Assembly: GCA_016764015.1 (NCBI GenBank) | Contig: JAESSR010000287.1 | Location: forward strand, 1-17,272 | Length of the DNA: 17,272 nt | Direction of reading: 5' to 3' | Origin: Phycisphaerales bacterium | GTDB lineage: Bacteria > Planctomycetota > Phycisphaerae > Phycisphaerales > UBA1924 | Part shown: positions 1 to 17,272 of the stretch, piece after piece | Position numbering within the stretch: the first letter of the stretch is position 1 | Layout of the letters: every line of letters begins with the position of its first letter | The notes under the pieces: model-generated | Databases searched by the model: none | Told to the model about the DNA's origin: nothing | The model's input: the letters and a program-made list of their open reading frames with translations, nothing else | Translations under genes and position numbers: made by a program

Positions 1-2079
1 CCGCTGCACTCCATCCTCGAAGAACTCGCCGACACCGACACCGGGCACGACAACCGCCAATACGGCATCATCACCGCCGACGGGCAAACCCTGACCTACT
101 CGGGCATCGATAACGCCGATTGGGCCGGCGGCATCACGGGCAGAATCGAACGCGGCCAACTCGGCCCAGCCGACGATATCGTCTACACTGTGCAGGGCAA
201 TATTCTCTCAGGACCCAATGTTGTTCAAGACGCGGTCGATGCGATTATCAACACCGATACAGACCTACCCGGTCGGCTCAAAGCCGCGATGCTCGCAGCC
301 CAAGTTGGTGGCGGCGACGGGCGATGCTCATGCAACAACGCCGACCCCACCGGGTGCGGCTCGCCGCCTCCAGGACCATTCAAGAGCGCCCATGTCGGAT
401 ACATGCTCGGCGCTCGGCTCGATGACATCGACGCCGTGCCCGCGTTCTACCCGATCTCCGGCATCTCGGGCGGCATGGCCACCCTCGATATCAACCACGA
501 CGGCATGGAAGATGTCGTCATCGGCGATGACGCCAACGACGAGATTTCAATCTTCCTCAACACCGCCCACGCGGGCGATCCAATCTCACACATGCTCAAG
601 CAAGAATCGATCACCCTCGGTGCTTCGCACATCGTTGCGATGAGCACCGGCGATTTTAACAACGACGGGTACGACGATGTCGCCATTGCACTGAGCACGC
701 CGCCAACGCTGGCAATCTTGCTCGGGCAAGCATCGGGCAGTCTTGGCGATCCGATCACGCTTGCGCTACCTGCGGCCCCAACGGGGTTGACAGCCGCCAA
801 ACTTGATGCTGGCTCAAATGATAAAATCATTGTTTCTCAAGGCTCGATCGATATTGTCCAGTCCTTCTACCTCCTGAATGATCACATCACTCAAGGAGGA
901 AACATCAACATCACTGGCAATCCTTCTACGGTTATTGCCGCCGATGTTGTTGGCAACAGCGACCTAGATATCATCGTCGCCCGGCGCGATTTGAATACTG
1001 TGTGGATCGGCGAGAACAGAAACAAAGACGGTTTTATTGAAGCCGCCAACATCCCCACCGCCAATCAACCCAGCAAACTCGTTGCGGCTGACATGGATAG
1101 CGACGGCGACAATGAACTCATCATCTTAAGCGGCTCGGGCAGACGCGTCGAAGTCTTTGCAGATTCTGCCAAGGGCTGGGTGCAGACCAACGACATGGGC
1201 ATCAACCAGAGCGGAATCGGACTCACTGTCGGCGACTTCGATGGCGACACATTCCCAGACATCATCACCACTTCATCAAGAAGCGGACGAAACCTGCAAG
1301 TCTTTACCAATGATGGCGTCGGCGGGTTTACAATCTCCGACACCGCCCGCGTGGGCAACGGCGCAACGAACATCAAACTCATTGACATGAACGCCAATGG
1401 CGATCTCGATATCGTCATCGCCAACTTTGGCGCTGAAGGACTTCTCATCCACGACAACCCACGCGGCACATCGCTCTCGCGGGCAGGTCGCTTCGCCGAC
1501 GGCGACTACTTCCTCGAACTCAACATCGCCAACCAGCGGGCCGACGATCCAGACCCCGTCGACCAGCTTATCGAAGGATTCGACCTCTGGCGGATTGATC
1601 TTGCTGGCAAGGTCGATGCTGTGCAATCAGCAGTCATCGGACGCCATCGCGTATTAAGCTTTGGCTCAACAACCATCACCGTAGAACTGCGCGACTGGCA
1701 AGATCAACTCCTCCCAATCTCTGACCCGGGCGCGTGGTTATTGCAAGATGCCAACGGGCTCTTTTCCGCGACCGATCCGATACTTGTTGAACCCGGAATC
1801 TTTGAGATCGACCTCATCGGTCACGAAACGCTTGGCCAAGACGAGCTCATTATCCGGGTAGGTTCAGGCGCTGACCAGATCCGCCTGATGCCCAACTACC
1901 CGCTCTTTTTCGTTCACAACATCGCAGACTTCACGGCTGATGGCCGGCTCAACTTCTTCGACATCTCCGCATTCCTCATCGCGTACGGTGCCCAAAGCCC
2001 AGATGCAGATATCAACGGCGATGGCTTCTTTAACGCCTTCGATATCTCCGCTTTTCTCGCTGCGTTCGCCGATGGTTAA
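1..2079 (+). CDS. DUF1028 / FG-GAP repeat / dockerin-like fusion protein (5' truncated)
   Basis: The reading frame is open from base 1, so the true start lies outside the window; 692 residues are visible. Residues about 1-135 match my memory of the C-terminal half of DUF1028, a family of unknown activity: YGIITADGQTLTYSG, a Gly-rich AGGITG stretch, VQGNILSGPNVV and a GGDGR motif. An internal GTG at 190 lies inside this domain and is not the start. Residues about 155-490 carry six FG-GAP/VCBS-type Asp-rich repeats (for example DINHDGMEDVVI, DFNNDGYDDVAI, DMDSDGDNELII), which usually form a calcium-binding beta-propeller. A beta-rich stretch follows at about 498-635, then a two-repeat dockerin-like tail at 640-692 (ADFTADGRLNFFD and ADINGDGFFNAFD). 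This tail ends in ADG rather than GCP and lacks the cysteine that precedes the module in the other proteins here. Likely exported. No terminator is obvious before the palindrome downstream. Confidence 0.85.
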   Translation, partial: PLHSILEELADTDTGHDNRQYGIITADGQTLTYSGIDNADWAGGITGRIERGQLGPADDIVYTVQGNILSGPNVVQDAVDAIINTDTDLPGRLKAAMLAAQVGGGDGRCSCNNADPTGCGSPPPGPFKSAHVGYMLGARLDDIDAVPAFYPISGISGGMATLDINHDGMEDVVIGDDANDEISIFLNTAHAGDPISHMLKQESITLGASHIVAMSTGDFNNDGYDDVAIALSTPPTLAILLGQASGSLGDPITLALPAAPTGLTAAKLDAGSNDKIIVSQGSIDIVQSFYLLNDHITQGGNINITGNPSTVIAADVVGNSDLDIIVARRDLNTVWIGENRNKDGFIEAANIPTANQPSKLVAADMDSDGDNELIILSGSGRRVEVFADSAKGWVQTNDMGINQSGIGLTVGDFDGDTFPDIITTSSRSGRNLQVFTNDGVGGFTISDTARVGNGATNIKLIDMNANGDLDIVIANFGAEGLLIHDNPRGTSLSRAGRFADGDYFLELNIANQRADDPDPVDQLIEGFDLWRIDLAGKVDAVQSAVIGRHRVLSFGSTTITVELRDWQDQLLPISDPGAWLLQDANGLFSATDPILVEPGIFEIDLIGHETLGQDELIIRVGSGADQIRLMPNYPLFFVHNIADFTADGRLNFFDISAFLIAYGAQSPDADINGDGFFNAFDISAFLAAFADG

Positions 2080-2125
2080 TCCGATGTGTGTTCGTCTGAG
2101 CTTGATTGCAAAATTACCCGCCTCC

Positions 2126-2215
2126 GGGTGCCACTACTCGCCGTCTTCGGCGCAGTAGTGTCTTGCTTTGGATGTTTCTTGCACTACTGCGCCCTGCGGG
2201 CGAGTAGTGGCACCC
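2126..2215. repeat. REP/BIME-like paired-hairpin palindrome
   Basis: Two outer 17-base arms are perfect inverted copies: gggtgccactactcgcc at 2126-2142 and its reverse complement at 2199-2215. Two inner 12-base arms are also perfect inverted copies (2149-2160 and 2182-2193). The whole element can therefore fold as one long stem around a 21-base centre (2161-2181). Each half can instead fold alone: cactact/agtagtg plus cgcc/ggcg, with loop gtcttc in the left half and ctgcg in the right half. Two such units in inverted orientation is the layout of a bacterial REP doublet (BIME). It lies between tandem genes. It has no T-run, so it is not a standard intrinsic terminator, although it could stabilise or attenuate the transcript. 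No second copy was seen in the window. Confidence 0.7.
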
Positions 2216-2274
2216 AGATTCCATTCTGCAAGACACTGCCTAAACTCAGTGGGGAACAACACAGGAGTCGTCTC

Positions 2275-3204
2275 ATGAAAACAGCAATCAAAATAATCGC
2301 CGTCCTTTTCGTGCTCATCATCGCGCTCGTTGTCGGACTGATCTTCTTCGGGCTTGGGCAAATCGACAAAATCGCCAAGAACGCTGTCGAATACGGCGGC
2401 ACCTACGCGATGGGCGTCGAAACCACCGTGGACTCCGTCGATGTTGCCGTCACCAAAGGCACCGTCGAGATGGGCACGCTCAACATCGCCAACCCCGACG
2501 GATTCGATACCAGCCACTTCTTCCAGCTCGCAAACGCAACGGCTTCGTTCGATCTCGAATCCATTGGCGCTGATACCTACATCGTCCCCTCGATCCACCT
2601 CACCGGCATCGATGTCATCCTCGATAAGGGCAACGACCCATCGAACTACAACCAGATTCTTGAAAATCTCGCACGGTTTGAATCCGGTGAAGCCGAACCT
2701 GCCGACAAAGCAAAGGCCGGCAAGAACCTCATCATCAAATCATTGATCCTCGAAGACATCAACATCCACATCGCCAACATGCCCGGCGTGTCTTTGCTCG
2801 CGGGCGATGTCGCGATCAACATCCCGCAGATCGAGCTCCAGAACATTGGCGAAAAAGAAAGCATGAACGCTGGCGACATCTTCAACCTCGTCATCAAAAC
2901 CGTCCTCGCTGCTGCCGTCGAAGCCGGCGGCGGGATCATCCCCGGTGATATCCTCGGCGAACTCGGCAACGGGCTCGCAGGGCTGTCATCACTGAGCGAC
3001 ATGGGCATCGATGCCATCTCTGATCTCAACCTCGACGAAGCACTCGGGGGCATCGCAGACCAAGCTGGTGAGCAGCTCGAAAAAGCTACAGAAGATGTCC
3101 AAAAAGCTGTCGATGATGTCGCTGATGACCTTGAAGATGCAGTCGAAGACACCGCCAACAAGCTCAAAGGCATCTTTGGTGGCGGCAAAAAGGATGAGCC
3201 GTAA
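2275..3204 (+). CDS. Small membrane-anchored AsmA-like protein
   Basis: 309 residues starting at MKTAIKIIAVLF. The start is chosen because AGGAG at 2263-2267 sits 7 bases upstream and the product then begins with a membrane segment (residues about 4-28); the frame is open back to an ATG at 2086, but that would bury the anchor. The body resembles small AsmA/DUF748-type proteins: an N-terminal anchor, then the 'VETTVDSVDVAVTKGTVEMGTLNIANPDGF' region described by its key parts (TxVDSVxV, GTVEMGTLNIANPDGF), then repeated beta-strands such as SIHLTGIDVILDKG and SLILEDINIHI. AsmA relatives sit in the envelope and are tied to outer-membrane or lipid homeostasis; the exact role here is unknown. Residues about 263-309 form an Ala/Asp/Lys-rich amphipathic helix (EKATEDVQKAVDDVADDLED) ending in GGGKKDEP. 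It has no dockerin tail, unlike most of its neighbours. Confidence 0.78.
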   Translation: MKTAIKIIAVLFVLIIALVVGLIFFGLGQIDKIAKNAVEYGGTYAMGVETTVDSVDVAVTKGTVEMGTLNIANPDGFDTSHFFQLANATASFDLESIGADTYIVPSIHLTGIDVILDKGNDPSNYNQILENLARFESGEAEPADKAKAGKNLIIKSLILEDINIHIANMPGVSLLAGDVAINIPQIELQNIGEKESMNAGDIFNLVIKTVLAAAVEAGGGIIPGDILGELGNGLAGLSSLSDMGIDAISDLNLDEALGGIADQAGEQLEKATEDVQKAVDDVADDLEDAVEDTANKLKGIFGGGKKDEP

Positions 3205-3252
3205 ACCGATCTATTAAAGACCTTGTTATCTTTAAAAAACACCCTTCATACG

Positions 3253-3280
3253 ACCCAATCTGCAACGGTTGGGTTTTCTT
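3253..3280 (+). terminator. Probable intrinsic terminator after the AsmA-like gene
   Basis: The stem acccaa (3253-3258) / ttgggt (3269-3274) has a 10-base loop and runs into ttttctt. It lies about 50 bases after the stop codon. A weaker A/T-only hairpin, ttaaaga/tctttaa (3214-3220 / 3229-3235), precedes it. The stem is only 6 bp, so confidence is moderate. Confidence 0.5.
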
Positions 3281-3666: not shown

Positions 3667-6240
3667 ATGACTACCAACCACACATCAAGCATTCCAAACA
3701 CTTTAGCTGCCATTGCGTTCTTGCTTGCAACAAGCGGCACATGTATCGCTCAACAATCAAAGTCGAATGACACCCTCCCCGCCTCGCCTATTACACTCAC
3801 CAGCGTGCAAGCACGATCCATAGAAAGTGCATACAACTGGCTCGATCGAGACAGCTCAAGCCTCAACGCGACCCTCACCCCGCGCACGATCTTTGTCGAA
3901 ACGCCGGGAGTCAAAGAACGAACCAACTACCTCAATGTCCAAGTGAAATCGCGCGCAAAAATGCTCGAACAGATCGCCCGCGAATCTGCCCATTCACAGA
4001 TCGACAATCCCGTGCTCCAAACCCGAGGCGTCACCAACAACTCAATCCAACAAACTCAGCTCGCATTTGAAGCACGCCTCGCCCTCGCAGATGAACGACT
4101 CATCGAAGCCCGCGATCGCCTTGCCCCATCACTGCGTGAAGCCTACCCAGATATAGACATGCACTCGGTCCAACTCCCCGATGGCATGAGCGCCGAGATC
4201 GCCGCAGAAGCACTCATGCTCACCGGCGACTACGAGTTTGTCTCAATCGACTGGCTCTGCTACCCGCTCGACACAACCCCAAACGACTCGCTCTTTGGTA
4301 CCCAATGGTATCACCAAGCGAACATCATCGACTCGGTTGGCGCCTGGGACTTCACCCAAGGCAACCCGACCACCATCATCGGCATTTGCGACTCAGGTGT
4401 CGATCTCGATCATCCAGACCTGATGGGCGCCCTCGTCGATGGCTACAACGCGGTTGATAACCTCGCACAAATCGACGGCGGCAATGTCAACGATGATCTC
4501 GTCGGGCACGGCACACTCGTCGCTGGAGCCGCAGCCGCGATCGGCAACAACGGCATCGGAGTCGCTGGGGTCGGATGGAACTTTGGGATCATGCCCATCA
4601 AAGTCTCTAACAGTGCCGACGGCACCGCGATGCTCTCGGAAATCCTCGAAGGCGCCCGGTGGGCATCGGACAACGGCGCGTACACTTCAAACTGTTCCTT
4701 CGCCGGCGCCGAAGACGGTGCAGTACGATCTACCGGCGGGCACATCCGCCTCGAAGGGCACCTGCTCGTCTTTGCTGCGGGCAACGACGGGCTCGCCAAC
4801 CAAACCAATGACTGGGCGAAAGTCACCATCGTCGGCGCTTCAAACCAAAGCGATAACTGGGCAACATGGCCACACACTGGCATCGGGATCGACTGCATCG
4901 CACCTGGGGTCAGTATCCGCTCAACCAACCGCAATGGTGGGTACTCATTCACAACTGGCACCAGTTTCTCTGCACCGATCACCGCTGGAGCGTTGATGCT
5001 CATCCATGACGCCAACCCAGCACTCACCGCAGACGAAGTCGAGTTCACACTCCTCAACACTTGCGATGACAAGCAAGCCGCTGGGCAAGACGACCAGACC
5101 GGATGGGGACGGATCAATGTCGGCCAAGCAATCAACGACGCGATCTTTGGGCCATCGATCATCAATCTCCCATTCGACGATTCGTTCCCCGATGAAACCC
5201 TCCCAACCCAATGGCGCAACCCCATTGGAGATGTCATCGTCTCGACCGACGGGATCAACGAGCCGTCGCCCCCATACGCCATGAACATTGATGACACCGA
5301 TTCAATCGAAACCATCTCAATGCGGGCAGCCTTCCTCGCTGGATCACCCGCCGAGATCCGTTTCTCCACTCAACACCGAGGAGTCGAAGCCGGCGAATCA
5401 CTCAGAGTCGAATACCTCGACCTGCTCCTCAACTGGTCAACCCTCACCACCATCACATCCGATGGCAGCGACCAAGAAGAGTTCACGCTCTTCCGATCAA
5501 CACTCCCGCTCCTTGGAATGCACGATCAGTTCAAACTCCGCTTTGTAGCCCAAGGCACAAACACAAGCGACGACTGGTACATCGACGATGTCTCCATCTT
5601 CGAGTTCACAAATAACGAACTCCCCTGGGAAGAAAGCTTCGAGAATGGAATCTTGCTCACGCTCGATTGGGTATCAAGCTCGGCATCTGCATCCACCGAC
5701 GCAACCAACGAGCCCGACGGCACAATGAGCGCCCAGATGGACAACCAAGACTCCATGACCACCACCGATATCGATGTATCGTCAGCCGAAGAAATCATCT
5801 ATGTCCATTTCTACACCCAGCACACCGGAGTAGAAGCCGGCGAAACGCTCGATGTTGAATACAAAACGACAGCCGGAGTCTGGAGAGACCTCATCACCGT
5901 CGAATCCGACGGCTTCGACCAAAACCAGTTTGATCTCAACCAACTCCTCCTGCCCTTCGACGCCTACTTCGGCACCACCGCATTGCGGTTCACCGCTCAG
6001 GGTGACGAACCAGACGACACATGGTTCCTCGATCTCGTCGCGATTACCACCGAGTTTATTGAAGAAAACACATGCCCCGCCGATCTCACCGACGACGGCA
6101 TCCTCAACTTCTTTGATGTCGCGGCGTTCCTCGCCGCCTTTGGTGCCCAAGACCCAATCGCTGACTTCACTAACGATGGGGTATACAACTTCTTCGATGT
6201 TGCCGAGTTCCTCGCCAACTTCGCTGCAGGATGCCCATAA
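3667..6240 (+). CDS. Secreted subtilisin-family (S8) serine protease with dockerin-like tail, copy 1
   Basis: 857 residues. The start at 3667 gives a hydrophobic N-terminus that ends in a plausible signal-peptidase site after CIA (residue about 28); the only purine-rich site upstream is GAGAGA at 3651-3656, which is weak. An in-frame TTG at 3649 would add a positively charged n-region (RDIKI) and is an alternative; the upstream ATG at 3493 would bury the signal peptide. Residues about 30-220 are a propeptide-like region. The catalytic triad is intact: Asp242 (ICDSGVDLDHPDL), His281 (GHGTLVAG) and Ser433 (GTSFSAP), with oxyanion Asn373 (AAGND). Two MAM-like jelly-roll domains follow at about 501-650 and 652-800; both contain a GVEAGE(S/T)L motif. 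The dockerin-like tail is at 803-857 (DLTDDGILNFFD, DFTNDGVYNFFD, GCP). It likely forms an operon with its paralog 62 bases downstream. The substrate is unknown. Confidence 0.92.
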   Translation: MTTNHTSSIPNTLAAIAFLLATSGTCIAQQSKSNDTLPASPITLTSVQARSIESAYNWLDRDSSSLNATLTPRTIFVETPGVKERTNYLNVQVKSRAKMLEQIARESAHSQIDNPVLQTRGVTNNSIQQTQLAFEARLALADERLIEARDRLAPSLREAYPDIDMHSVQLPDGMSAEIAAEALMLTGDYEFVSIDWLCYPLDTTPNDSLFGTQWYHQANIIDSVGAWDFTQGNPTTIIGICDSGVDLDHPDLMGALVDGYNAVDNLAQIDGGNVNDDLVGHGTLVAGAAAAIGNNGIGVAGVGWNFGIMPIKVSNSADGTAMLSEILEGARWASDNGAYTSNCSFAGAEDGAVRSTGGHIRLEGHLLVFAAGNDGLANQTNDWAKVTIVGASNQSDNWATWPHTGIGIDCIAPGVSIRSTNRNGGYSFTTGTSFSAPITAGALMLIHDANPALTADEVEFTLLNTCDDKQAAGQDDQTGWGRINVGQAINDAIFGPSIINLPFDDSFPDETLPTQWRNPIGDVIVSTDGINEPSPPYAMNIDDTDSIETISMRAAFLAGSPAEIRFSTQHRGVEAGESLRVEYLDLLLNWSTLTTITSDGSDQEEFTLFRSTLPLLGMHDQFKLRFVAQGTNTSDDWYIDDVSIFEFTNNELPWEESFENGILLTLDWVSSSASASTDATNEPDGTMSAQMDNQDSMTTTDIDVSSAEEIIYVHFYTQHTGVEAGETLDVEYKTTAGVWRDLITVESDGFDQNQFDLNQLLLPFDAYFGTTALRFTAQGDEPDDTWFLDLVAITTEFIEENTCPADLTDDGILNFFDVAAFLAAFGAQDPIADFTNDGVYNFFDVAEFLANFAAGCP

Positions 6241-6302
6241 CAACCATCACCCATCTCACCGATTCAAACCAGCAATCACTTCACCGCAAGGATATCCTCA
6301 AC

Positions 6303-8714
6303 ATGAACATCAACAAGAGACGAATCTACACCGCACTCAGCGCCACGATGATAAGCATCGCTGCTGGTTCAGCATTGAGCGCGTCAAACTCATCAAGCCA
6401 AGAACCGACCAACTCGGCTCAATCAAACGCAGCACACATCCAAAGAGCTACACAGATCGCAGCAGACACGCTCGCCCTCGAGCCCGGCGACGCAGAACTC
6501 TTCGATCAAGCACTCCGCTCACCAATCCTGTTCACCGCCATTCCCAACGAACGAACTTTCACCGGCCAGCTCATAGTCCATTCCAAAGCAGGCAAGAACA
6601 AAGCAGCAACCAGCCGAATCTCACCGATAACAGTCAAAGAGAGCGCCTTCGTCAACGAGTTCGTCATCACTGTCCCCGCGGGCATGACCGAAGGAGAACT
6701 CGCAGCCATACTCATGGCCACCGGCGACTACGAGTTCGTCGAGCCCAACTGGACGCTCTACCCCGCCGTTGTACCCAATGATCCACAGTTCGGATCAAGC
6801 TGGCAGCACACCCGCCTGCAATCCGCCAACGCATGGGACCTGCACACCGGCACCGCAAACATCATCGTTGCGATCTGCGATTCGGGGGTCGATGATGACC
6901 ACCCAGACCTTGTCGATTCGCTCGTCCTCGGCTACAACGCGGCATCAAACGCCGAACAGGTCAACGGCGGGCTTGTCGATGACATCAACGGTCATGGCAC
7001 TTTCGTCGCAGGATGTGCCGCTGCAAGAGGCAACAACGCTATCGGAGTCTCAGGGGTCGGATGGGACTTCTCCATCATGCCCATCCGCGTCACCAACAAC
7101 TCCAACGGCACCGCCAGCGGGTTCGACCTGCTCGAAGGCGCACGCTGGGCCGCCGATCACGGCGCACAGATCGTCAATGTCAGCTTCTCTGGTGGCACCT
7201 CGCCATCAAACCAATCAACAGGCGCCTACCTCAAATCACAAGGCGCATTGCTCTTCTGGGCTGCCGGAAACGATAACGGCTTCGTCTCACCCAACCGCCC
7301 AGATTATGTACTCGTCGCATCGACCACATCTTCCGACAATAAATCAGGGTTCAGCAACTTTGGACCCGCTGTCGACATCGCTGCTCCAGGATCGAGCGTG
7401 CGTTCAACCCGCCGATTCGGAACCTACGGCAACGGCTCGGGCACAAGCTACGCCTCGCCAATCGCCGCGGGTGTCGGCGCGATGATCTTCTCGGTCAATC
7501 CTGAGTTCTCTCCAGATGATGTCCAAGCAATCCTCTACTCAAGCGTCGATGACCTCGGCGCACCCGGACGCGACGACTCCTTCGGACGCGGCCGGGTCAA
7601 CACTCACAACGCGATCCTCGCAGCCCAGTCATACATCTCCCCGATCATCACACCGCTCAACGAATCCTTTGAATCCACAGACTGGCAAGACCTCTTCGTC
7701 GCCACAACTGGGATTGTCGAAACGACCCCTTCACCCGACGCACCCGATGGTTCAAGCGTATTGGTGCTCAACAACAACGACATCGTCGAAACCGTCACCC
7801 TCGCCGGACGCTCGACCTCAGGTTCAATCACACTCGCGTTTGAGCTCAAAGCACAGAGCATCGAACCCGGCGAATCACTCGAAATCCAATACCTCGAAAA
7901 CCCTGAAACCCTCCCAAACACATGGACAACACTCCACTCGATCTCCGGGCAAGGGCTCACAGCAAGCGAGTTCGTCCTCCATCAAATCGTCCTGCCAAAC
8001 GAATACAAATGGCACGGCGTACAACTCAGGTTCGTCGCCAATGGCTCCGACTCATCCGATGTTTGGATGATCGACTCATTCTCAATTGACCAGAGTGTTG
8101 TACTCGTCGCACCACTCGATGACAACTTCGAATCCGGGTTGATCTCCTCGCTCCGCTGGGATGACATCATCAACGCCCAAATTGCCTTGGACAACAACCA
8201 TTCCGTCCAACTCGCCGACGAAGCAATCCTCGAATCTCACGAAATCCCGCTTGATGTCTTCGGGATCGTCCCCGCGTTCATCCGCTTCGACGCATGGACC
8301 GACGGCAACCAATCACCAAGCGACGAACTCGCAATCGAAGTCTTCAACATCGTCAATTTCTGGGAGAACGCCGACACCATTCTCGCGAGCGATCTCACCA
8401 CCGAGCCGCAATCATTCGAGATCAATGTCCCATTCAGCGCCATCGCCATCGACGACATGCGTGTCCGGTTCCTCGCCTCGACAACGAGCGCGTTCCACAT
8501 CAACAATGTGTATGTCGGCGTCGATGAACTCTCCGCCGGATGCAACGCCGCCGATCTCGCCGAACCGTTCGACACACTCAACTTCTTTGATATCAGTGCA
8601 TTCTTGAGTGCCTTTTCTGCTCAAGACTCAGCCGCCGACTTCAACAACGACGGCGTGTTCAACTTCTTCGATATCTCAGAGTTCCTTACCATCTTCAGCA
8701 TCGGGTGCCCATAA
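6303..8714 (+). CDS. Secreted subtilisin-family (S8) serine protease with dockerin-like tail, copy 2
   Basis: 803 residues; a paralog of the preceding gene with the same domain order. The start at 6303 follows AAGGA (6288-6292) and gives a classic signal peptide: MNINKRRIY, a hydrophobic core, then cleavage near SALSA. Residues about 30-175 are a propeptide (VITVPAGM, GDYEFVEPNW). The triad is Asp193 (ICDSGVDDDHPDL), His231 (GHGTFVAG) and Ser382 (GTSYASP), with Asn323 (AAGND) as the oxyanion residue. Two jelly-roll-like domains span about 450-600 and 600-745. The dockerin-like tail (747-803) is odd: its first calcium loop reads DLAEPFDTLNFFD, one residue longer than the usual DLTGDGxLNFFD and without the Asp-Gly turn, while the second loop (DFNNDGVFNFFD) looks normal. 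It ends in GCP. No terminator separates it from copy 1, and a strong one follows it. Confidence 0.92.
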   Translation: MNINKRRIYTALSATMISIAAGSALSASNSSSQEPTNSAQSNAAHIQRATQIAADTLALEPGDAELFDQALRSPILFTAIPNERTFTGQLIVHSKAGKNKAATSRISPITVKESAFVNEFVITVPAGMTEGELAAILMATGDYEFVEPNWTLYPAVVPNDPQFGSSWQHTRLQSANAWDLHTGTANIIVAICDSGVDDDHPDLVDSLVLGYNAASNAEQVNGGLVDDINGHGTFVAGCAAARGNNAIGVSGVGWDFSIMPIRVTNNSNGTASGFDLLEGARWAADHGAQIVNVSFSGGTSPSNQSTGAYLKSQGALLFWAAGNDNGFVSPNRPDYVLVASTTSSDNKSGFSNFGPAVDIAAPGSSVRSTRRFGTYGNGSGTSYASPIAAGVGAMIFSVNPEFSPDDVQAILYSSVDDLGAPGRDDSFGRGRVNTHNAILAAQSYISPIITPLNESFESTDWQDLFVATTGIVETTPSPDAPDGSSVLVLNNNDIVETVTLAGRSTSGSITLAFELKAQSIEPGESLEIQYLENPETLPNTWTTLHSISGQGLTASEFVLHQIVLPNEYKWHGVQLRFVANGSDSSDVWMIDSFSIDQSVVLVAPLDDNFESGLISSLRWDDIINAQIALDNNHSVQLADEAILESHEIPLDVFGIVPAFIRFDAWTDGNQSPSDELAIEVFNIVNFWENADTILASDLTTEPQSFEINVPFSAIAIDDMRVRFLASTTSAFHINNVYVGVDELSAGCNAADLAEPFDTLNFFDISAFLSAFSAQDSAADFNNDGVFNFFDISEFLTIFSIGCP

Positions 8715-8778: not shown

Positions 8779-8797
8779 AATCAAACAAGAAACAACA

Positions 8798-11122
8798 TTA
8801 AGGACAACCCGCAGCGAATAACAGAAGGAATGCACTCACATCAAAGAAGTTAAACACACCCTCGCCTGTAAAATCTGCGATGGGGTCTTGGTCTCCAAAC
8901 GCCTGGAGAAAAGCGGACACATCGAAGAAATTAAGAACGCCTTCACCCGTAAAATCTGCCAAACACACCGATTCAATACACATCGTTGTCAGAACCCCAA
9001 CTTGTTCGATTGTGGTGCCCACTAAATCTCCCAAACCATCGCCGTTGATATCTTCGCATGCGAAGATTCCACCGAGTTCTAAGAGCACATCATGCTCATA
9101 GGTGACCTGCAAAAAACCATCCCCACTTGGCGTGCCGAGCAATACATCCAGAGTCGCAGCACTCTTTGCGATGATATCAATCAATCCATCGCCATTGATA
9201 TCCCCATGAACCAACCCAGCCCCTTGCCCGACCGGGTACAACGCTGATTGCACAAACCCGCCACCTGGTTGCTGATACAAAATCGAGAGTTCGTTTGTGG
9301 CAGCAGTCACCACAGCGATATCAATATCTCCATCCCCATCGAGATCGGCGGGGAGAACACGCGACATAGCACCAATGTCCGTAGCAATCAAGCTCACATC
9401 ATCAAACCCGCCACTCCCATCGTTATTGAACACGCCGATCTGATCGAAGACCCGCCCGACGATATCAAGATCCGAATCGTTATCAATATCAACAAGCCAA
9501 ACCGATGACATCCGGTGGTTCGATGTATACTCCGTCGGCTCAGAAAAACCCCACAAACCTGTCCCGAAGTACACACTCATTTCAACATCAAATGATGGAG
9601 AATGCCTCACCACGACATCGTTCAACCCATCACCATTCAGATCGCCAGCATCAACTCGAATCGGCCCCAGAGCGGTCCTGATCGAAGAAAACGGCTCAAA
9701 GTTTCCCGCGCCATCGCCGACAAGCACAGAAAAACGAGCCGACAAACTGTTCACAACCACCATGTCAATCGTGCCGAACCCGCTCAAATCCGCAATCGCG
9801 AGATCCTGAGGCGAGTTTCCCAGCCCATTATCAAATGACACACCCGCCCCAAATTCACCATTCCCGTCATTGAGAAACACACGAACCTCGTTGGCATCTC
9901 TCTCGAGTGCAATCACATCCTGATCGCCATCTCGATCAATATCAAAGAGTGAAGAACCTCGCAAGTTTGAGCCATAGGCAGCGAGCGAAACACCAAAGAA
10001 TTGCCCGTCGCCAGTATTCTCAAGTATGCTCACTGAATCTGCCAACACCTGCGCAACTGCAATATCTTGATCGCCGTCTTGATCAAAGTCGCCGGCAATC
10101 ATCGCTCCCGTTCGAGATCGGAGCGAGACAGAATACGCATGGTGAGCAAACACGCCTCCAGCGTTTCGATACACGCTTGCGCCATACGCGATTTCGCCTT
10201 GAAAAGTGAGCCGACTCAGAACAATATCAGGCAACAATCCTTGGGACAGATTGGCAACCACGATACCCTCAACAATTCCTTGGGTTGAGAATCGCTGTTG
10301 TTGTGTCAATATCCCAAACCCCACATTCTCGAGTACACGAATAAAATCAACGCCATCTTCACGCTCAACGATCACAAGATCCGCATCGCCGTCGCCGTCG
10401 ATGTCACCTATCGCATTGTGCAAGTTTGATCCCGGGTTGGGAACTGAAAACTCGATCTGATCACTGAAAGTACCATCGCCTTGATTGATCAGTGTCGTCA
10501 CCGAACTACTCCGCACCGACAACATATCCATCGCTCCGTCATCATTAAAATCATGGCCAATCAATTCGCCGCCGGCATTGAGTTCATGTGTTTGGTAGGC
10601 TTCAAACGAGCCGTCGCCGACCCCGCGAAGCAGAATCAGATCCGTGCTCGCCCGAACGGTCAATGCGATATCAAGGATGCCGTCTCCGGTAAAATCTTCG
10701 ACCACCATTGACCGAGGGTCATTGCCGCACAGAAAAATCGCAGACTCCCCAAAGGTACCGTCTCCATTGTTGAGCCAAACCTTCACCCAAGGATCGAATC
10801 CGCTCTCTACAACAATATCGAGTGCGCCATCGAGATTCAGATCACCTAAGACAACGGAGTTCCCACTTTGATCTGAAGGATATCTCATTTCAGGCAGAAA
10901 CCCACCTGCACCATCGTTGATGAGCACGCTCACCCCTTGGTTCCCCCCGCTTCGCGCTACGATATCTTCCCAACCATCCCCATTGAGATCGCCGCTATCA
11001 AGCACTCTTGGTAAATCGCCAACATCGTATTGATCTGCAAACTTGAAAAACTGGTTCTCGTCACACTCCTGCGCACACAACGGAGACACCGACAACAACA
11101 AAGCCAACGAAGCATACCGCAT
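8798..11122 (-). CDS. Secreted FG-GAP/VCBS repeat protein with dockerin-like tail
   Basis: 774 residues. The start is ATG at 11122, because GAAAGG at 11130-11135 lies 7 bases upstream; the frame extends to a TTG at 11140 that overlaps this site. The signal peptide MRYASLALLLSVSPLCA is followed by QECDENQ. Fourteen Asp-rich FG-GAP-type repeats can be counted between about residues 40 and 715, such as DLNGDGWEDIVA, DFTGDGILDIAL, DIDGDGDADLVI, DFDQDGDQDIAV, DLDGDGDIDIAV and DINGDGLIDIIA. Such repeats form calcium-stabilised beta-propeller blades, and fourteen would fit two seven-bladed propellers. The dockerin-like tail is at 720-774; both calcium loops read FTGEG, with Glu where most of the other copies have Asp, and it ends in AAGCP. 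It follows the beta-strand repeat gene by 49 bases on the same strand. Function is probably binding rather than catalysis; no catalytic motif is visible. Confidence 0.9.
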   Translation of the reverse strand: MRYASLALLLSVSPLCAQECDENQFFKFADQYDVGDLPRVLDSGDLNGDGWEDIVARSGGNQGVSVLINDGAGGFLPEMRYPSDQSGNSVVLGDLNLDGALDIVVESGFDPWVKVWLNNGDGTFGESAIFLCGNDPRSMVVEDFTGDGILDIALTVRASTDLILLRGVGDGSFEAYQTHELNAGGELIGHDFNDDGAMDMLSVRSSSVTTLINQGDGTFSDQIEFSVPNPGSNLHNAIGDIDGDGDADLVIVEREDGVDFIRVLENVGFGILTQQQRFSTQGIVEGIVVANLSQGLLPDIVLSRLTFQGEIAYGASVYRNAGGVFAHHAYSVSLRSRTGAMIAGDFDQDGDQDIAVAQVLADSVSILENTGDGQFFGVSLAAYGSNLRGSSLFDIDRDGDQDVIALERDANEVRVFLNDGNGEFGAGVSFDNGLGNSPQDLAIADLSGFGTIDMVVVNSLSARFSVLVGDGAGNFEPFSSIRTALGPIRVDAGDLNGDGLNDVVVRHSPSFDVEMSVYFGTGLWGFSEPTEYTSNHRMSSVWLVDIDNDSDLDIVGRVFDQIGVFNNDGSGGFDDVSLIATDIGAMSRVLPADLDGDGDIDIAVVTAATNELSILYQQPGGGFVQSALYPVGQGAGLVHGDINGDGLIDIIAKSAATLDVLLGTPSGDGFLQVTYEHDVLLELGGIFACEDINGDGLGDLVGTTIEQVGVLTTMCIESVCLADFTGEGVLNFFDVSAFLQAFGDQDPIADFTGEGVFNFFDVSAFLLLFAAGCP

Positions 11123-11171
11123 ATGAATACCTTTCAGCAAACTCTTTTATATAAACAGAGATCAAAGAATA

Positions 11172-14078
11172 TTACGGACATCCTGCTACAAACGCTCCAA
11201 GAAACGCAGACACATCGAAGAAGTTAAACAATCCGTCGCCACTGAAATCCGCGATTGGGTCTTGAGCTGCGAATGCGGCAAGGAACGCGGAGACATCGAA
11301 GAAGTTGAGCGAACCATCGCCAGTAAGATCCGCAATGCACGATGCTGTTGCGGTGATGCGCACTTCAATACCAACTATTGAAGCAATAAATCCCTCGCCG
11401 GAACCAAGCCCGACCACCTGCACATCATCAAACGCCCCGGTGATACCCTCTGAAGCAATTAAGACGATCAACTCTTCGCCGATCGTATAGTCCGCGAGCG
11501 TTCCGTCGATCGTTGCGCTCCCGATGATATTGAGGACATCCATCGTGTTGGTGCCAGGCCCAGACTGGACCATGCTTACATGCAATCTCGACGATGGACG
11601 CATCAGCAGATCACCCTGCATCCCGATGACACTCGATCCCGATTCGTCCACACCAAAGCGCCCCCACACCTCGAGCAACGGAGTCACGATTGAAGGCAAT
11701 GGTGCCCCCCGCTTTTTCCCATTCCGTGCGAGCACTGCAACGACATTAATCTCATCTGCTGCACTATCAACCTCACCGATCGTCATTGATCCCGTTGCTT
11801 CAATCTTTGCCCCGGGCTCGATTGTTGTCCTTGATCCGTCTTTCGATGTATAGTCGCCGTGAACAGTCACATCACCCGCGGCTGTCAGTTCCGAACCACC
11901 CGAGAGCCCCAGACTGCCGTTGAATACCGAATCAAGAAGCCTTGCTGATGCGGCGTTGTCCATGCGCTCGAGCGATCCCAACTGCGGCATCTCTGCCGTA
12001 CCTCCACGGATAACGCCAGGTCCATGAAGTTGAATAAGCTCACTTGTAAAATTGAGACTCGAGCCCATTTCAACAGCCCACTCCCCGCCGGTGAGTGTTC
12101 CTGTAAAGGGCTCAAACTGAGTGACATCGCCGGTAAGAAAAAGATGCCCCTTTTTAACAAACACAAGCCTGGTGTTATTAAACGGAGCGCTGATGATGTG
12201 TGTTCCAAAGTTCGGATCATCAACCGAGAACTCGTTGTAGTTATTGAACATATTCCCGCTACCAGACATCAATATTGACGAACCATTACTCATCACCCAA
12301 GAAGAAGAACTGTCAACAGTGCCGCCCTGTAGGGTAAATGATCCGCTTTGGGCAACACTCGCGTTGTCCTCAAAGATTGCAAGTTTGGACTTGAGCACCT
12401 TGCCTGTTGCCGGCCTGATGCTCAAGACATTGGACTCCATGTCGACATCGACACCAATCGAGCCACCAAACCAGTTGATGTCATGAGTGATTTCAATCTT
12501 CCCAGCACCGGTAATCTCACCGCCATTAAAATCCGTCTTGGTTCCGATCTCGAGTGTTGCAGACACATCAACTGTCGGCCCAAAGCCATTGATCGTGCCA
12601 ACTGACATTCGTGATAACGATGCTGCAGACGATCCGATGCTGTAGTCACCTGTCACAGAATACGGCTCTGTTGCTGTCCCGTTTACATGAAGCGTCGAGA
12701 TCAAAAGGTCTTCGAAGAGATTCACAACTCCTCCGCTGAGCACTCCGCCGCCGGTAAGATGAAGCGTCGCGTTATTCACCAACAGGGCACCGCCCTTGTC
12801 AGAGTTGTATTTAGAATCGATCGTTGAAGTCGCGCCTGACTCATCACCAACAAGCTCAACATTCCCAACATTCAAAATCGCGCCGCGCGTTGCCGGAGTC
12901 AATGATCCAACCACACTCCCGTCGTGGAGCTGGATCGTCCCCAGGAAGTTCTCAAGCACAATGTTGTCATCTAAGAACAGCGACCCGAACAAATCAACTG
13001 TTCCTTCATTGTGCATCGGCATCTTCAAGGACATCGAGTTGCTAATAGGCACCTCAACAGTTCCGCCAGATTCATTATCAAACGAGCCGGTCCCGCTGAG
13101 TGTCGAGCCGCGCCCAACCCACAATCCTGTGTTGGAAATCGCGCCGGCGATGTTGAGCGTCCCAGCCCACGCGGTGAGCCCGGTGCCCGTGACATTTGTA
13201 TCCGTTGATCCGGCCCAGTTGATCGTTGCGTTCGCAGGAAACACATCCACCGCACCGTTCCCGCTGATGCTTGTCGCGCCAAGCGATCGCGTCGCGGCGA
13301 CATTTGTGCCGATGAGCAAGAGCCGACCACCATTACTCACCGAAAGGGAGCCGCCCGAAATATTCCACGCATCGCTGTTGATCGAAACCGCTGCGCCGAT
13401 GCCGCTAACTGAAATGGATCCAGATGACTGAGTAAGCCCAAAGTTGATATTTGTTGTCCCCGCCCCACCAGTTCTCGATAAAGTACCAGAGTTGATGAAC
13501 ATACCGTTGGGACCACCAATCACCGCATCCGGCTGAAGGGTAAATGTGCCGCTGTTTGTAAACTCGGCGCCGTTGCTCAAGTTGAGCGAACTCCCCCCGG
13601 GCTGCATGTTCCATGTCCCCGTATTTGAGCCATTGATCGCGTCATATCCAAAGCTAAGGACATCAAAAATTCCCGCATTGTTGAAGCTCCCAGATCCGAA
13701 GACCTGCCCGACATTGCATGAGCTATTGCCGGAAATTATAAAACTCCCTTCGGTGAACACTGTCGGTACACCTCCGCCACCATCGAAAATCATGTTGGTG
13801 ACCGTAGATGAACCCGACACATCAATCGACCCTGTGGTCAAACGCAAGCTGCTCAAGCAGTCAAGCGACGAGCACGCCTCGGACGACAGAATAATCTGCA
13901 CCGTCCCCGCATCGCTCGGGATCATCACCTGTGATGAAATCCCAGGCACAATGTCCGTGTCCCAGTTCTGTTGTGATATCCAAAGACCATCACCTGCATC
14001 GCCATCCCATGTCGTCGGCTGCGCAATCACACTCCCGCTCAATACCGCTAAACAAACAACACCTGCACGAATACCCAT
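11172..14078 (-). CDS. Secreted autotransporter-like beta-strand repeat protein with dockerin-like tail
   Basis: 968 residues. The start is ATG at 14078, chosen because AAGGGAG (14084-14090) lies 5 bases upstream; the frame runs to a TTG at 14093 that overlaps this site. The signal peptide MGIRAGVVCLAVLSGSVIA is followed by QPTTWDGDAGDGLW. This opening, with GLWISQQNWDTDIVPG close behind, is typical of passenger-like proteins rich in autotransporter-associated beta-strand repeats. The body is rich in Gly, Ser, Asn and Thr with recurring short strands (NNAGIFDV, NSGTFTL, NEGTVDLFGS), fitting a long beta-solenoid. Near residues 840-910 the text MDVLNIIGSATIDGTLADY ... GAFDDVQV resembles the usual end of such passengers. 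There is no outer-membrane barrel; instead a dockerin-like tail sits at 914-968 (DLTGDGSLNFFD, DFSGDGLFNFFD, VAGCP). A role as a surface filament or adhesin is inference. Confidence 0.87.
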   Translation of the reverse strand: MGIRAGVVCLAVLSGSVIAQPTTWDGDAGDGLWISQQNWDTDIVPGISSQVMIPSDAGTVQIILSSEACSSLDCLSSLRLTTGSIDVSGSSTVTNMIFDGGGGVPTVFTEGSFIISGNSSCNVGQVFGSGSFNNAGIFDVLSFGYDAINGSNTGTWNMQPGGSSLNLSNGAEFTNSGTFTLQPDAVIGGPNGMFINSGTLSRTGGAGTTNINFGLTQSSGSISVSGIGAAVSINSDAWNISGGSLSVSNGGRLLLIGTNVAATRSLGATSISGNGAVDVFPANATINWAGSTDTNVTGTGLTAWAGTLNIAGAISNTGLWVGRGSTLSGTGSFDNESGGTVEVPISNSMSLKMPMHNEGTVDLFGSLFLDDNIVLENFLGTIQLHDGSVVGSLTPATRGAILNVGNVELVGDESGATSTIDSKYNSDKGGALLVNNATLHLTGGGVLSGGVVNLFEDLLISTLHVNGTATEPYSVTGDYSIGSSAASLSRMSVGTINGFGPTVDVSATLEIGTKTDFNGGEITGAGKIEITHDINWFGGSIGVDVDMESNVLSIRPATGKVLKSKLAIFEDNASVAQSGSFTLQGGTVDSSSSWVMSNGSSILMSGSGNMFNNYNEFSVDDPNFGTHIISAPFNNTRLVFVKKGHLFLTGDVTQFEPFTGTLTGGEWAVEMGSSLNFTSELIQLHGPGVIRGGTAEMPQLGSLERMDNAASARLLDSVFNGSLGLSGGSELTAAGDVTVHGDYTSKDGSRTTIEPGAKIEATGSMTIGEVDSAADEINVVAVLARNGKKRGAPLPSIVTPLLEVWGRFGVDESGSSVIGMQGDLLMRPSSRLHVSMVQSGPGTNTMDVLNIIGSATIDGTLADYTIGEELIVLIASEGITGAFDDVQVVGLGSGEGFIASIVGIEVRITATASCIADLTGDGSLNFFDVSAFLAAFAAQDPIADFSGDGLFNFFDVSAFLGAFVAGCP

Positions 14079-14180
14079 CGCTTCTCCCTTCAATCATCCA
14101 GAGCGTTCAGTATCGCAGAATAAACTATTGGGGTCAAGCCTAGAAACGAAGTCCGATATTGGAGCCCGTTATCATCTCAA
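14079..14180 (-). promoter_or_regulatory. Candidate sigma70-type promoter and RBS for the beta-strand repeat gene
   Basis: On the minus strand, TTGACC (14132-14137) and GATACT (14109-14114) are separated by 17 bases, resembling a -35/-10 pair (5/6 and 4/6 matches). The predicted transcript start, near 14102, is followed by AAGGGAG at 14084-14090. If real, it would allow this gene, and the FG-GAP gene 49 bases beyond it, to be transcribed independently of the upstream frameshifted gene. No terminator is visible between that gene and this promoter. Confidence 0.4.
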
Positions 14181-15250
14181 TCATGGACATCCTGCTACAA
14201 ATGCACCGAGAAACGCCGACACATCAAAGAAGTTAAACAGCCCATCACCCGTGAAGTCTGCGATCGGATCGTTCTGAGCAAACGCACCAAGGAACGCGCT
14301 GACATCAAAGAAGTTCAACTCGCCATCACCGGTCAAATCGGCGAGACAACCGACGGCTCCATCGTCAATCACCAGCGTCACGGCATCCCATGTCTGTGCA
14401 CCCTCGATCACCCCGAGATCAACAACCGATCCGACCAACGGATCAACCGTATACAGGTGACTCGAAATCTCGACAAAGACATCCGGCTTCACCTCATCAA
14501 ACCCTTGGATCACCGCGTAAAGCGTTCCGTCAGAAGCGAAGTCGAGTCGGTCTCGAACTGAGGTGTAAACCCAATCCCAAAGAGCGACTGCTGCGAAACA
14601 ATCGTGTTCGAATCCAAATCAATCTGCACCAATCGAAGCGAGCCGCCAAAGCTCGCCGCTAATCCATACAAATCGCCAGCAGCCAATGTCGGATGCCCCA
14701 CTGGAACAACGGCCAACGACGAAACGACAAAGTTCAAAATGTTGTGTACCTCAAGCACCGCACCCGTATCAGCATCGACTCCAAGAATCCGCAAAAACGC
14801 ACCAACCGTCGTCGACACATACGCCACAGATCCATCGTTCGAATACGCCATCCCGGCCACTCCAGAATCCATGTAGCCAATCGAGTCGATCAGCGTGTTG
14901 CCGCCGTTGACCAGATCAAGAATACGAATCGCATTGGTCGTATTTTCAAACGCGACGAGATCTGCGGTCCCAGGCCGAATATCCGCCCCACCAAACCGCA
15001 AGTCGGTCGCGGCCAACGCAACAGAACTCACCACGCTCGGATCAGCCAAATCAACCAACCCCACGCGCCCGAGTTCGATCCCCGGCGCTCCAAAGAACCC
15101 AGAGCCCTCGATAATGTACGCCTGTACTGCCGCATCACCGCCAGCCGACGCGTTCATCGCCACACCCATCACGACGGCTGCGCCAACCAACCCTAAACTC
15201 TTGATGCTCTTCTTCATACACCATCTCTTCATAAACCGATTCGTATTCAT
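14181..15250 (-). pseudogene. Beta-propeller-like secreted dockerin protein split by a -1 frameshift
   Basis: Two overlapping frames together make one protein of about 356 residues. The first frame (15250-14510) has a signal peptide ending near NASA, then propeller-like text (AFENTTNAIRILDLVNGG, GMAYSNDGSVAYVSTT, GDLYGLAASFGGSLRLVQID). It derails after GFTPQFETDS into a short meaningless tail (LLTERFTR, then stop). The next frame supplies the expected continuation, DFASDGTLYAVIQGFDE, then SHLYTVDPLVGSVVDLGVI and a dockerin-like tail (DLTGDGELNFFD, DFTGDGLFNFFD, VAGCP). One missing base near 14543-14548 explains this. ATG at 15250 has GGAGGG (15257-15262) 6 bases upstream and overlaps the previous gene's stop as ATGA; a later ATG at 15217 (MKKSIKSLG) is an alternative start. 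It could be a true broken gene, a sequencing or assembly error, or, less likely, programmed frameshifting. No enzyme family is recognised. Confidence 0.8.
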
Positions 15251-16296
15251 TTCGAGCCCTCCACACTTGTCGACAACCCGAGTTCATCTGCAATCGCCTG
15301 AGCCTTCGATCGTGGATCAGGTGCTGGCATCGCAATCGGAAGACGCTCATTGTGATCATCAGTGTTCATGTTCAATAATCCAATCGGCACGGTAAACTTC
15401 GTCACATATCGAAACCCGGTCCCCGCTGCTTCGGTCTCTACAACAACCCCGGCGCGTGTCACTTCAAAGACGCCAGTAGTCGTGGTCACCAACAGATTCC
15501 CATTGCCAAGCTCGGCGATCCCACGATACAGATCCAGATTTCCCGGGTCATACTGACCAACAAGATTCGCATCCGAATCAAACTCAAGGATCACACCGTT
15601 CGAGAACGAACACACCAACAGGTTCCCGTTGCTCGCGATCGCCATCTGTTGAGGAAAATCAAGTTGAGGCACAACGAACGAACTTGTGAACCGCTCATTG
15701 AACTTGCCATCAAGCGTGTATCGCACGATCTTGTCTTGCCCTTCATCGGCGACCAGCACCTCGCCGTTGTATTCGATCACATCGAACGGCCCACGAATCC
15801 CGCCATAGCGATTAAACGCAAAGTCCTGCTTCTCTGAACCATCCGCCGGATCAAGCCGCTTTACATTTTTCTGCGACACGGCCAGATCATTAAACGCCCC
15901 CGAGTTCGTCACCAGCACATCGCCAGCACCATCGCCCTGGGTCAGAACATGCCCGCCTCGGATATTGTTCATGATATTGGGATCACGAACGCCCCCAAGC
16001 GAGAACACACCAACAAACGAGCCATCCGCATTGAACCGCGAAACCACATCTGCAAACTGATCCGTGACGAGCAATGATCCGTCAGCCGCCAAGAGCACTT
16101 CCATTGGACGATTGAAAACATCAACGCCGTTGTCTGAGCCGGGATCGACAATAAATGAATCGTCGATCAACGAGCCATCAAATGCCGAGAACATCCATAC
16201 CCGATCGGCAGAAGAATCAGGAATCAACAACACATCTTGTGCGCTCGCCAATCCACAAACCCCACCCAACGCAATCAACATACAATATCGGACCAT
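15247..16296 (-). CDS. Secreted NHL/SMP-30-like beta-propeller protein
   Basis: 349 residues. The start at 16296 is chosen because AAGGGAG (16302-16308) lies 5 bases upstream and gives the signal peptide MVRYCMLIALGGVCGLASA followed by QDV; the frame stays open to 16362 without support. The body has repeated NHL-type units: NRPMEVLLAADGSLLVTDQF, VSRFNADGSFVGVF, GPFDVIEYNGEVLVADEG, IVRYTLDGKFNERF, FPQQMAIASNGNLLVCSFSN, ILEFDSDANLVGQY and GIAELGNGNLLVTTTTG. This fits a six-bladed propeller. No catalytic set typical of gluconolactonases was identified. The last 30 or so residues are polar and there is no dockerin tail, unusual in this cluster. Its stop overlaps the start of the next gene (ATGA at 15247-15250), so the two are probably translated together; both are propeller-like. 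Confidence 0.85.
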   Translation of the reverse strand: MVRYCMLIALGGVCGLASAQDVLLIPDSSADRVWMFSAFDGSLIDDSFIVDPGSDNGVDVFNRPMEVLLAADGSLLVTDQFADVVSRFNADGSFVGVFSLGGVRDPNIMNNIRGGHVLTQGDGAGDVLVTNSGAFNDLAVSQKNVKRLDPADGSEKQDFAFNRYGGIRGPFDVIEYNGEVLVADEGQDKIVRYTLDGKFNERFTSSFVVPQLDFPQQMAIASNGNLLVCSFSNGVILEFDSDANLVGQYDPGNLDLYRGIAELGNGNLLVTTTTGVFEVTRAGVVVETEAAGTGFRYVTKFTVPIGLLNMNTDDHNERLPIAMPAPDPRSKAQAIADELGLSTSVEGSK

Positions 16297-16333
16297 GACA
16301 ACTCCCTTGTAATCCAGATTATGACCGGCTCGC

Positions 16334-16362
16334 ATCCTACCACATGTTTGATGAATCACCAA
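16334..16362 (-). promoter_or_regulatory. Candidate promoter for the NHL-propeller/dockerin gene pair
   Basis: On the minus strand TTGGTG (16357-16362) and TAGGAT (16334-16339) are 17 bases apart, a weak match to -35/-10 elements. It lies directly after the terminator of the upstream gene and about 40 bases before the ATG at 16296, which is the right place for the operon promoter. The match is weak and is supported mainly by position. Confidence 0.28.
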
Positions 16363-16416
16363 TACAAAACCCGCTCAATCGCGGGTAGAAAACACACATG
16401 AAAGCTATTTATGTGT
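16361..16416 (-). terminator. Tandem hairpin terminator after the beta-helix gene
   Basis: On the minus strand, just past the stop codon of the beta-helix gene, lies a 6-bp hairpin acacat/atgtgt (16411-16416 / 16394-16399). It is followed by a stronger stem acccgc/gcgggt (16381-16386 / 16369-16374, loop gattga) that runs into ttttgtatt. The second hairpin is a standard intrinsic terminator and separates this gene from the NHL-propeller operon. Confidence 0.75.
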
Positions 16417-16418
16417 TC

Positions 16419-17272
16419 TTACGGACACCCCGCCGCGAACGCACCCAAGAACGCAGACACATCAAAGAAGTTCAACAACCCATCGCCCGTAAAATCGGCA
16501 ATCGAATCGCCCGCACCAAACGCACCCAAGAACGCACTCACATCAAAGAAGTTGAGCGAGCCGTCACCGGTCAAATCCGCAGCACACGCAACCGTCACCT
16601 GATACTCATACGCACCCATATCAATCATCGGCGACGCGCCCGCGCCAGAATCAACAGTGTCAGGATCATCAACGAATCTTGGGTTGCCATCAAAATCAGT
16701 CATCAACAACGAGGTCCACCCAGCATTCTCACCAGCATCAATCCCTGGCGAACCAGCCGCAAGCCGATAGTCGCCACTGCCAACAAACACAGGTTCACTC
16801 TCAATACACCCGATCAAGTTCTCAGCATCAATCGGATCTTCACCGGCTGCGGGAGGCCCGAAGATGCCGGGAATCAAGGAATACCGTAGATCAAAGTTCC
16901 CGCCAATCTGCTCGCGGTAGTACCCTTGGAACTCAGGATTCCAGCCTGTGTTCCCAGAGAACACGCAGTTATTCACGATCAGGTTTGAGTTCCACACGCC
17001 ACTGGCGCCGCCATGCTCTTTACCGTGGTTGTTCACGAAGGTACAGTTCTCCAGAAACATATCCCTCGATGCAGCGGAGTACGAGCAGAACCCCCCGCCA
17101 AACCCACCAAGTTCTTGGATCGTGCTCTCCCTAGATTGGGCGGTGTTATTCTCGAAGATGGTATTGACGATCAACGCTTCATTCCAGGCGATGATCCCAC
17201 CACCGATTGACGCGGTATTGCTCTTGAACACTGAATCCTCAACAGTGAGCGGCGATCGGAACGAGAAAATCC
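16419..17272 (-). CDS. Right-handed beta-helix (choice-of-anchor-Q type) protein with dockerin-like tail (5' truncated)
   Basis: The frame is open to the window edge, so the N-terminus and signal peptide are outside; 284 residues are visible. The GTG at 17231 is internal to the repeats and not a start. The first half shows parallel beta-helix rungs: PLTVEDSVFKSNTASIGGG, LIVNTIFENNTA, MFLENCTFVNNHG and LIVNNCVFSGNTG. Then comes the typical end of a beta-helix of the choice-of-anchor-Q type: GDYRLAAGSPGIDAG, DFDGNPRFVDDPDT and MIDMGAYEYQ. The dockerin-like tail occupies the last 55 residues (DLTGDGSLNFFD, DFTGDGLLNFFD, AAGCP). Proteins of this kind are extracellular; some relatives bind or cleave polysaccharides, but no catalytic residues can be assigned from this part. 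A terminator follows directly. Confidence 0.9.
   Translation of the reverse strand, partial: IFSFRSPLTVEDSVFKSNTASIGGGIIAWNEALIVNTIFENNTAQSRESTIQELGGFGGGFCSYSAASRDMFLENCTFVNNHGKEHGGASGVWNSNLIVNNCVFSGNTGWNPEFQGYYREQIGGNFDLRYSLIPGIFGPPAAGEDPIDAENLIGCIESEPVFVGSGDYRLAAGSPGIDAGENAGWTSLLMTDFDGNPRFVDDPDTVDSGAGASPMIDMGAYEYQVTVACAADLTGDGSLNFFDVSAFLGAFGAGDSIADFTGDGLLNFFDVSAFLGAFAAGCP

Follow-up and report, generated by a model that had tools for sequence, protein, structure and literature searches.

Genes of the window and their tails

This report concerns contig JAESSR010000287.1 (GCA_016764015.1) of a Phycisphaerales bacterium (class Phycisphaerae), 17,272 nucleotides analysed over their whole length and here called the window, and a dockerin-like module recurring at the C-terminus of the proteins it encodes. 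Nine genes lie in the window, and one is split across two frames (ten open reading frames, ORFs, scanned). Seven of the ten ORFs carry a C-terminal tail module of about 54 residues, scoring 31.4-50.5 bits and in each case above the 29-bit cut-off of NCBIfam NF041540, which names it a GC-type dockerin; the three without a match to NF041540 are 2086-3204, 15247-16362 and 14510-15250. The alignment of the seven tails has 21 invariant columns out of 62. A first-pass annotation, made from the sequence without database searches, had reported the same dockerin-like tail on seven of nine genes, and this observation is confirmed; chance is excluded because a two-repeat pattern matched none of the shuffled C-termini (0/1294 for called genes, 0/14333 for stop-to-stop ORFs), the pattern itself missing one window tail, 6231-8714, whose first repeat is irregular. 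The tails were said usually to end in GCP, as six of the seven do; the exception, ORF 1-2079, ends in ADG and lacks both cysteines that flank the repeats elsewhere. Its closest relative among the compared loci, in genome G007 (locus L043), likewise lacks both.

The tailed cargo comprises two subtilases, two FG-GAP proteins (one with a DUF1028 front) and three proteins described in the first-pass annotation's own terms as beta-helix, beta-strand and propeller-like. The features are as follows, the untailed neighbours last.

1924..2076, + strand: tail of the DUF1028/FG-GAP protein (ORF 1-2079, truncated at its 5' end by the window edge; NF041540 31.4 bits, residues 642-692)
1..2079, + strand: body of the same ORF, DUF1028 (2.2e-15) and FG-GAP_3 (8e-23)
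6073..6234, + strand: tail of subtilase 1 (ORF 3493-6240; NF041540 43.3 bits, residues 861-914; Peptidase_S8 1.2e-35)
8547..8708, + strand: tail of subtilase 2 (ORF 6231-8714; NF041540 32 bits, residues 773-826; Peptidase_S8 3.4e-44; repeat 1 irregular)
8804..8965, - strand: tail of FG-GAP protein 2 (ORF 8798-11140; NF041540 40.1 bits, residues 726-779; FG-GAP_3 7.3e-65)
11178..11339, - strand: tail of the beta-strand repeat protein (ORF 11172-14093; NF041540 46.4 bits, residues 919-972; a Pfam scan gave no family above its cut-off for the body)
14187..14348, - strand: tail of the propeller-like protein (second frame, 14181-14513; NF041540 50.5 bits, residues 56-109)
16425..16586, - strand: tail of the beta-helix (choice-of-anchor Q) protein (ORF 16419-17270, 5' end cut; NF041540 47.6 bits, residues 229-282)
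16419..17270, - strand: body of the same ORF, NF041518 choice_anch_Q (31.6 bits, cut-off 25)
2086..3204, + strand: untailed DUF748/AsmA-like neighbour (DUF748 2.6e-11, 42.8 bits, below the cut-off of 50)
15247..16362, - strand: untailed NHL-propeller-like neighbour (weak NHL/SGL-type matches, none reaching its cut-off; a crude test indicates a signal peptide)

The propeller-like protein was rightly reported to bear a tail, but its gene (14181-15250, - strand) lies in two frames, a front at 14510-15250 and a piece at 14181-14513 overlapping by a few bases near 14510, and the tail is on the second piece only; the gene is broken or the sequence contains an error. The closest bodies to the window cargo among the compared loci share 60-63% identity and occur in genomes G006, G001 and G007, and a protein similar to the untailed 15247-16362 was recognised by eye in three compared genomes.

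Regarding export, whose absence the first-pass annotation named as a ground for refutation, all five tailed window genes with an intact front (the broken one counted) pass the crude signal-peptide test, and carriers exceed other genes across the compared loci (201/249 against 301/971). The test is loose, since it also passes the 5'-cut gene 16419-17270 and, with the first 105 residues shuffled, 64/249 carriers and 219/971 others.

Tail structure, distribution and group-specific residues

Two clean F-hand repeats were found in 226 of 255 tails, all with aspartate at positions 1 and 12, as the pattern requires, mostly aspartate at position 5 and mostly N, D or T at positions 3 and 9; the calcium ligands of dockerins are positions 1, 3, 5, 9 and 12, according to PMC5590126. 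The 29 tails without two clean repeats were left out, and one tail of genome G068 was dropped before the group tests (253 to 252). The tail resembles dockerins both in sequence and in predicted fold, in agreement with the likeness first proposed. A cysteine before repeat 1 (mostly by three residues) is accompanied by another after repeat 2 (mostly as the fourth residue) in 236/253 tails, both are absent in five, including that of ORF 1-2079, and 12 have a single one (Fisher p 2e-5). The ends of a dockerin adjoin each other, which makes it likely from the residue pattern that the flanking pair forms a disulfide clasp. An intramolecular clasp of a Ruminococcus dockerin has reportedly been published, to judge by its title. 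A tail variant in genome G131 (loci L156 and L157, two clean examples) has longer loops, with a repeat offset of 34 instead of 27, and lacks the N-terminal cysteine.

The module is abundant. A count of carriers by profile, proposed in the first-pass annotation for the window's genome, gave 55 to at least 150 NF041540 matches per genome in the 12 genomes reached via related loci (three with at least 150). Among 248 genomes of the class, with at most 23 candidates per genome scored (22 genomes at that maximum), 118 have a tail match at E <= 0.001 and 62 a match above the cut-off; among 294 genomes of the phylum 20 match, of which 15 were already in the class sample and the other five show a single weak match apiece. 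In a 400-kb sample taken evenly from one 3.6-Mb contig of genome G044, 23 of 316 ORFs have the module, two of them away from the C-terminus. There is one module per protein, second matches being weak fragments, and in the first set of tails 188 of 198 distinct ones end on the last residue. The G044 proteins 11803-13980 and 14023-16431 of locus L107, in which the module is not C-terminal, have similar ends, and in the first the module follows directly after the signal peptide. In genome G012, loci L108 and L112 encode proteins whose bodies are homologous (44% identical) and whose ends differ, PEP-CTERM in one and a GC-type dockerin with a short extension in the other; judged from their sequences, one kind of body exchanges its anchors.

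In every tail the two repeats, 20 residues each, were compared position by position. The calcium positions 1, 5 and 12 are alike in all genome groups (1 and 12 by requirement of the pattern), while positions 9, 10, 11, 13, 14 and 17, here called the face, vary between groups, in the same way in the two repeats, and are largely uniform inside each group. The resulting passwords are as follows.

Group S (including the window): FFDVS..L
Group Q: FFDVQ..L
Group L: IFDFL..QN
Group T: TLDVL..LN
Group N (two tails only): NGDFN..FA
Group A: FADLN..L
Group W: A(A/S)DLA..LG

Over all 5040 permutations of the group labels, the true pairing of the repeats ranks first at the face positions (0.74, permuted mean 0.28); for the calcium positions the true value of 0.88, against a mean of 0.81, is reached by 8 of the 5040, and for the remaining positions (0.58 against 0.40) the excess is smaller than at the face. 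Since loci L001-L076 were fetched with S-password patterns, the seeded tails were also removed; 84 of 158 S tails then remain and the face consensus is unchanged. The gene calling was simple and, where DNA is rich in GC (G011 among others), selects antisense ORFs; a recount on stop-to-stop ORFs gave 303 tails, with 289/302 falling in their own group (G011 as a separate group) and cysteines on both sides in 283/302. In a RecA tree of 27 of the 30 genomes (G002, G004 and G039 missing), S, Q and L are clades whose order is open, and the two W genomes are not united. The password follows the genome group rather than the gene, because in 91 of 92 cross-group pairs of homologous bodies (at least 35% identity over at least 200 residues, 70 proteins; for example a pair in G058 and G201 with 55% identity) both tails keep their own group's code. 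Recognition positions of known dockerins are 10 and 17 in PMC5590126, and 11 and 12 in the numbering used by PMC5301203. The simplest reading of these residue patterns is that one common partner per genome would bind the tails through the dockerin face used for cohesins.

A candidate receptor and its alternatives

The first-pass annotation saw no cohesin in the window, which holds: no window ORF matches a cohesin profile trained on the class, or the profile of the candidate described below, at E <= 10. The conventional cohesin PF00963 was rejected as the general partner. It is present in just one of the 12 genomes reached via related loci and, at E <= 0.01, in 43/248 class genomes (loci L113-L137; 37 above cut-off). 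The nine class genomes with a best tail E below 1e-12 all lack it, and three of the 22 at the maximum tail-candidate count have it (G221, G258 and, below cut-off, G108). The profile of 32 class cohesins, run on 24 tail-rich genomes, gave real matches in G012 and G233, one at E 0.485 in G001 that was taken as noise, and nothing in the other 21 at E <= 1; it also matched G039, as expected, and once G114. Exosortase, present in 12/12 genomes reached via related loci and in 241/248 class genomes, does not discriminate, and the PEP-CTERM body of locus L108 (G012), with matches in 4/25 genomes, three of them weak, was rejected as receptor. An internal-repeat scan of about 1.9 Mb returned 12 untailed long proteins, none scaffoldin-like as judged by length, repeats and ends alone.

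The suggestion that the receptor is undescribed or encoded elsewhere was right in placing the partner outside the window, and in 22/24 tail-rich relatives it is not a recognised cohesin; for the window's own group there is now a candidate. One weak match to the L108 protein led, partly by luck, to a family of small one-domain proteins with a PEP-CTERM end, several per genome and often in tandem arrays, in groups S, Q and L. The TIGR02595 cut-off is passed by six of eight members, PEP-CTERM is present by pattern in 78/87, and 70/78 have a signal peptide by the crude test. The family occurs in 18/18 genomes of S, Q and L, co-occurring there with the tail, and a domain-only profile finds it in 0/241 other class genomes; 16 other genomes match weakly, and among the matches listed (E to about 1e-4) only the C-terminal end is covered. 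Four members are fused to the tail. The predicted fold of one member is a nine-strand cohesin sandwich, with 2jh2, 2vo8, 2w1n and 2xdh among the best fold matches at 6-10% identity. No likeness to cohesins is visible in sequence: eight members gave no Pfam cohesin match at E <= 1, hhalign against cohesins gave probabilities of 0.2-2.4%, and a PDB sequence search returned no cohesin. This family, with its predicted cohesin fold, is the likely candidate partner in group S, to which the window belongs; the remaining groups would either hide receptors of their own or work differently. Seven loci with small PEP-CTERM proteins from genomes without the family, viewed by eye, showed no relative of it. 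Two such genomes, G225 (L205) and G233 (L204), encode small PEP-CTERM proteins of other kinds, with a tandem pair of similar ones in G225.

It is moderately probable, in our judgement, that the tail is a dockerin-type plug holding exported proteins outside the cell via this PEP-CTERM receptor with a cohesin fold. The cargo would pass the inner membrane by its signal peptide, and the tail would fold to an F-hand pair holding two calcium ions, in most cases clasped by a disulfide between the cysteine before repeat 1 and that of the GC(P) end. It would then bind the cohesin-fold receptor, kept in the envelope by a PEP-CTERM signal that exosortase would handle. With one password shared by the two repeats, binding may proceed through either of them (dual mode). 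In S, Q and L, several receptors of one domain each, often arranged in tandem, would take the place of a recognisable multi-cohesin scaffoldin, and receptors bearing a tail could chain to other receptors.

Several points weigh against this reading. The candidate is the only family modelled, its fold was predicted for one member and without control families, and its dockerin-facing sheet is not differently conserved (p = 0.40). It is lacking in 15 of the 22 class genomes at the maximum tail-candidate count, no gene linkage between it and the tail was seen, and shared ancestry alone could explain the co-occurrence in S, Q and L. The groups themselves were drawn after the passwords had been seen.

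The absence of the family from those tail-rich genomes, which need something else, is also what an alternative with one other, unseen partner per genome would predict, the PEP-CTERM family then being a lineage-restricted surface protein with a coincidental cohesin-like sandwich. Missing linkage, ancestry and the uncontrolled fold prediction suit it equally; it leaves as coincidence a family present throughout S, Q and L and nowhere else by the domain-only profile, with the predicted fold of a dockerin partner and four fusions to the tail, and we regard it as doubtful. An alternative in which the tail directs secretion or sorting by an outer-membrane machine, like the type IX C-terminal domain, instead of anchoring stably, would agree with the strict C-terminal placement, the mixed cargo, the single password per genome and the 'choice-of-anchor' body in the window. 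It appears improbable, no search aimed at type IX machinery having been made, as a calcium dockerin whose residues covary at known recognition positions fits binding, two G044 proteins carry the module elsewhere, one directly after the signal peptide, and homologous G012 bodies end in either PEP-CTERM or the tail. Least credible, and very improbable, is the absence of any common partner, the module having spread inside each genome from one founder with its uniformity due to recent copying. One module per protein on unrelated bodies would fit, as would a small excess of codon identity over saturation, seen for identical residues within a genome in 10/10 genomes computed; codon identity is nevertheless near its saturated value, and the password uniformity is therefore not recent copying. 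Moreover, in S and L position 2 favours different residues in the two repeats while the face is identical in both.

Returning to the plug and its PEP-CTERM receptor, the wider proposal, to which we give barely better than an even chance, is a general non-cellulosomal cohesin-dockerin sorting in which several per cent of the genes in a Phycisphaerales-type genome would be labelled and exosortase-anchored, sequence-cryptic cohesins would read the label; as lineages diverged, that label would have been changed at identical positions of the two repeats in almost every tail. How Planctomycetes keep their many secreted proteins on the surface is poorly known; if true, the proposal would join a proteome-wide sorting tail, its receptor and an exosortase link in one testable model. 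Dozens to hundreds of ligands and their receptors would have shifted their binding code jointly, and genomes with dockerins and no cohesins may conceal cohesins visible only by fold comparison.

Comparison with known systems

The first-pass interpretation, a surface-assembly or sorting system, is partly supported, with corrections on the module and its cargo. The tail is identical to that of NF041540, 'GC-type dockerin domain-anchored protein', whose name and description, the parts compared, state no partner or mechanism. Dockerins on peptidases also have precedents: PMC5590126 reports 71 in Pseudobacteroides cellulosolvens, and PMC6461901 proposes cohesin-dockerin pairing for peptidases in the 'planctosome' of Nemodlikiaceae (Phycisphaerae). 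In the literature searched, from which subscription papers are mostly absent, no paper has the phrase 'GC-type dockerin' or joins dockerin with PEP-CTERM, and no description of the tail-receptor pair was found; dockerin, cohesin and exosortase come together in one archaeal paper.

The planctosome shares with the present system the bacterial class and the peptidase pairing. Its cohesins, however, are recognised by sequence and lie on proteins with LTD, P-domains or hyaline repeats (PMC6461901), whereas 21 of the 24 tail-rich genomes have no cohesin match; among S, Q and L genomes sequence-recognised cohesins were found in G012 only, and LTD/P-domain proteins were not searched for.

Cellulosomes (Clostridium, Pseudobacteroides, Ruminococcus) share the two-repeat calcium dockerin and a password overlapping the recognition positions (PMC5590126 and PMC5301203), as well as alike repeats, as in dual-mode binders, and a cohesin fold, here predicted, on the opposite side. 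They differ in cargo, which in the window consists of proteases, FG-GAP, beta-helix and propeller proteins, in having scaffoldins instead of one-domain PEP-CTERM proteins without cohesin sequence likeness, and in that the password here varies by genome group. Non-cellulosomal cohesins, of Clostridium perfringens glycosidases and of Archaeoglobus, are among the candidate's best fold matches, from which it is set apart by the low identity noted above and by its small, one-domain, PEP-CTERM members, often in arrays. With the PEP-CTERM/exosortase surface proteins the candidate shares its C-terminal end, and it would be distinguished from them in holding the receptor for many other proteins.
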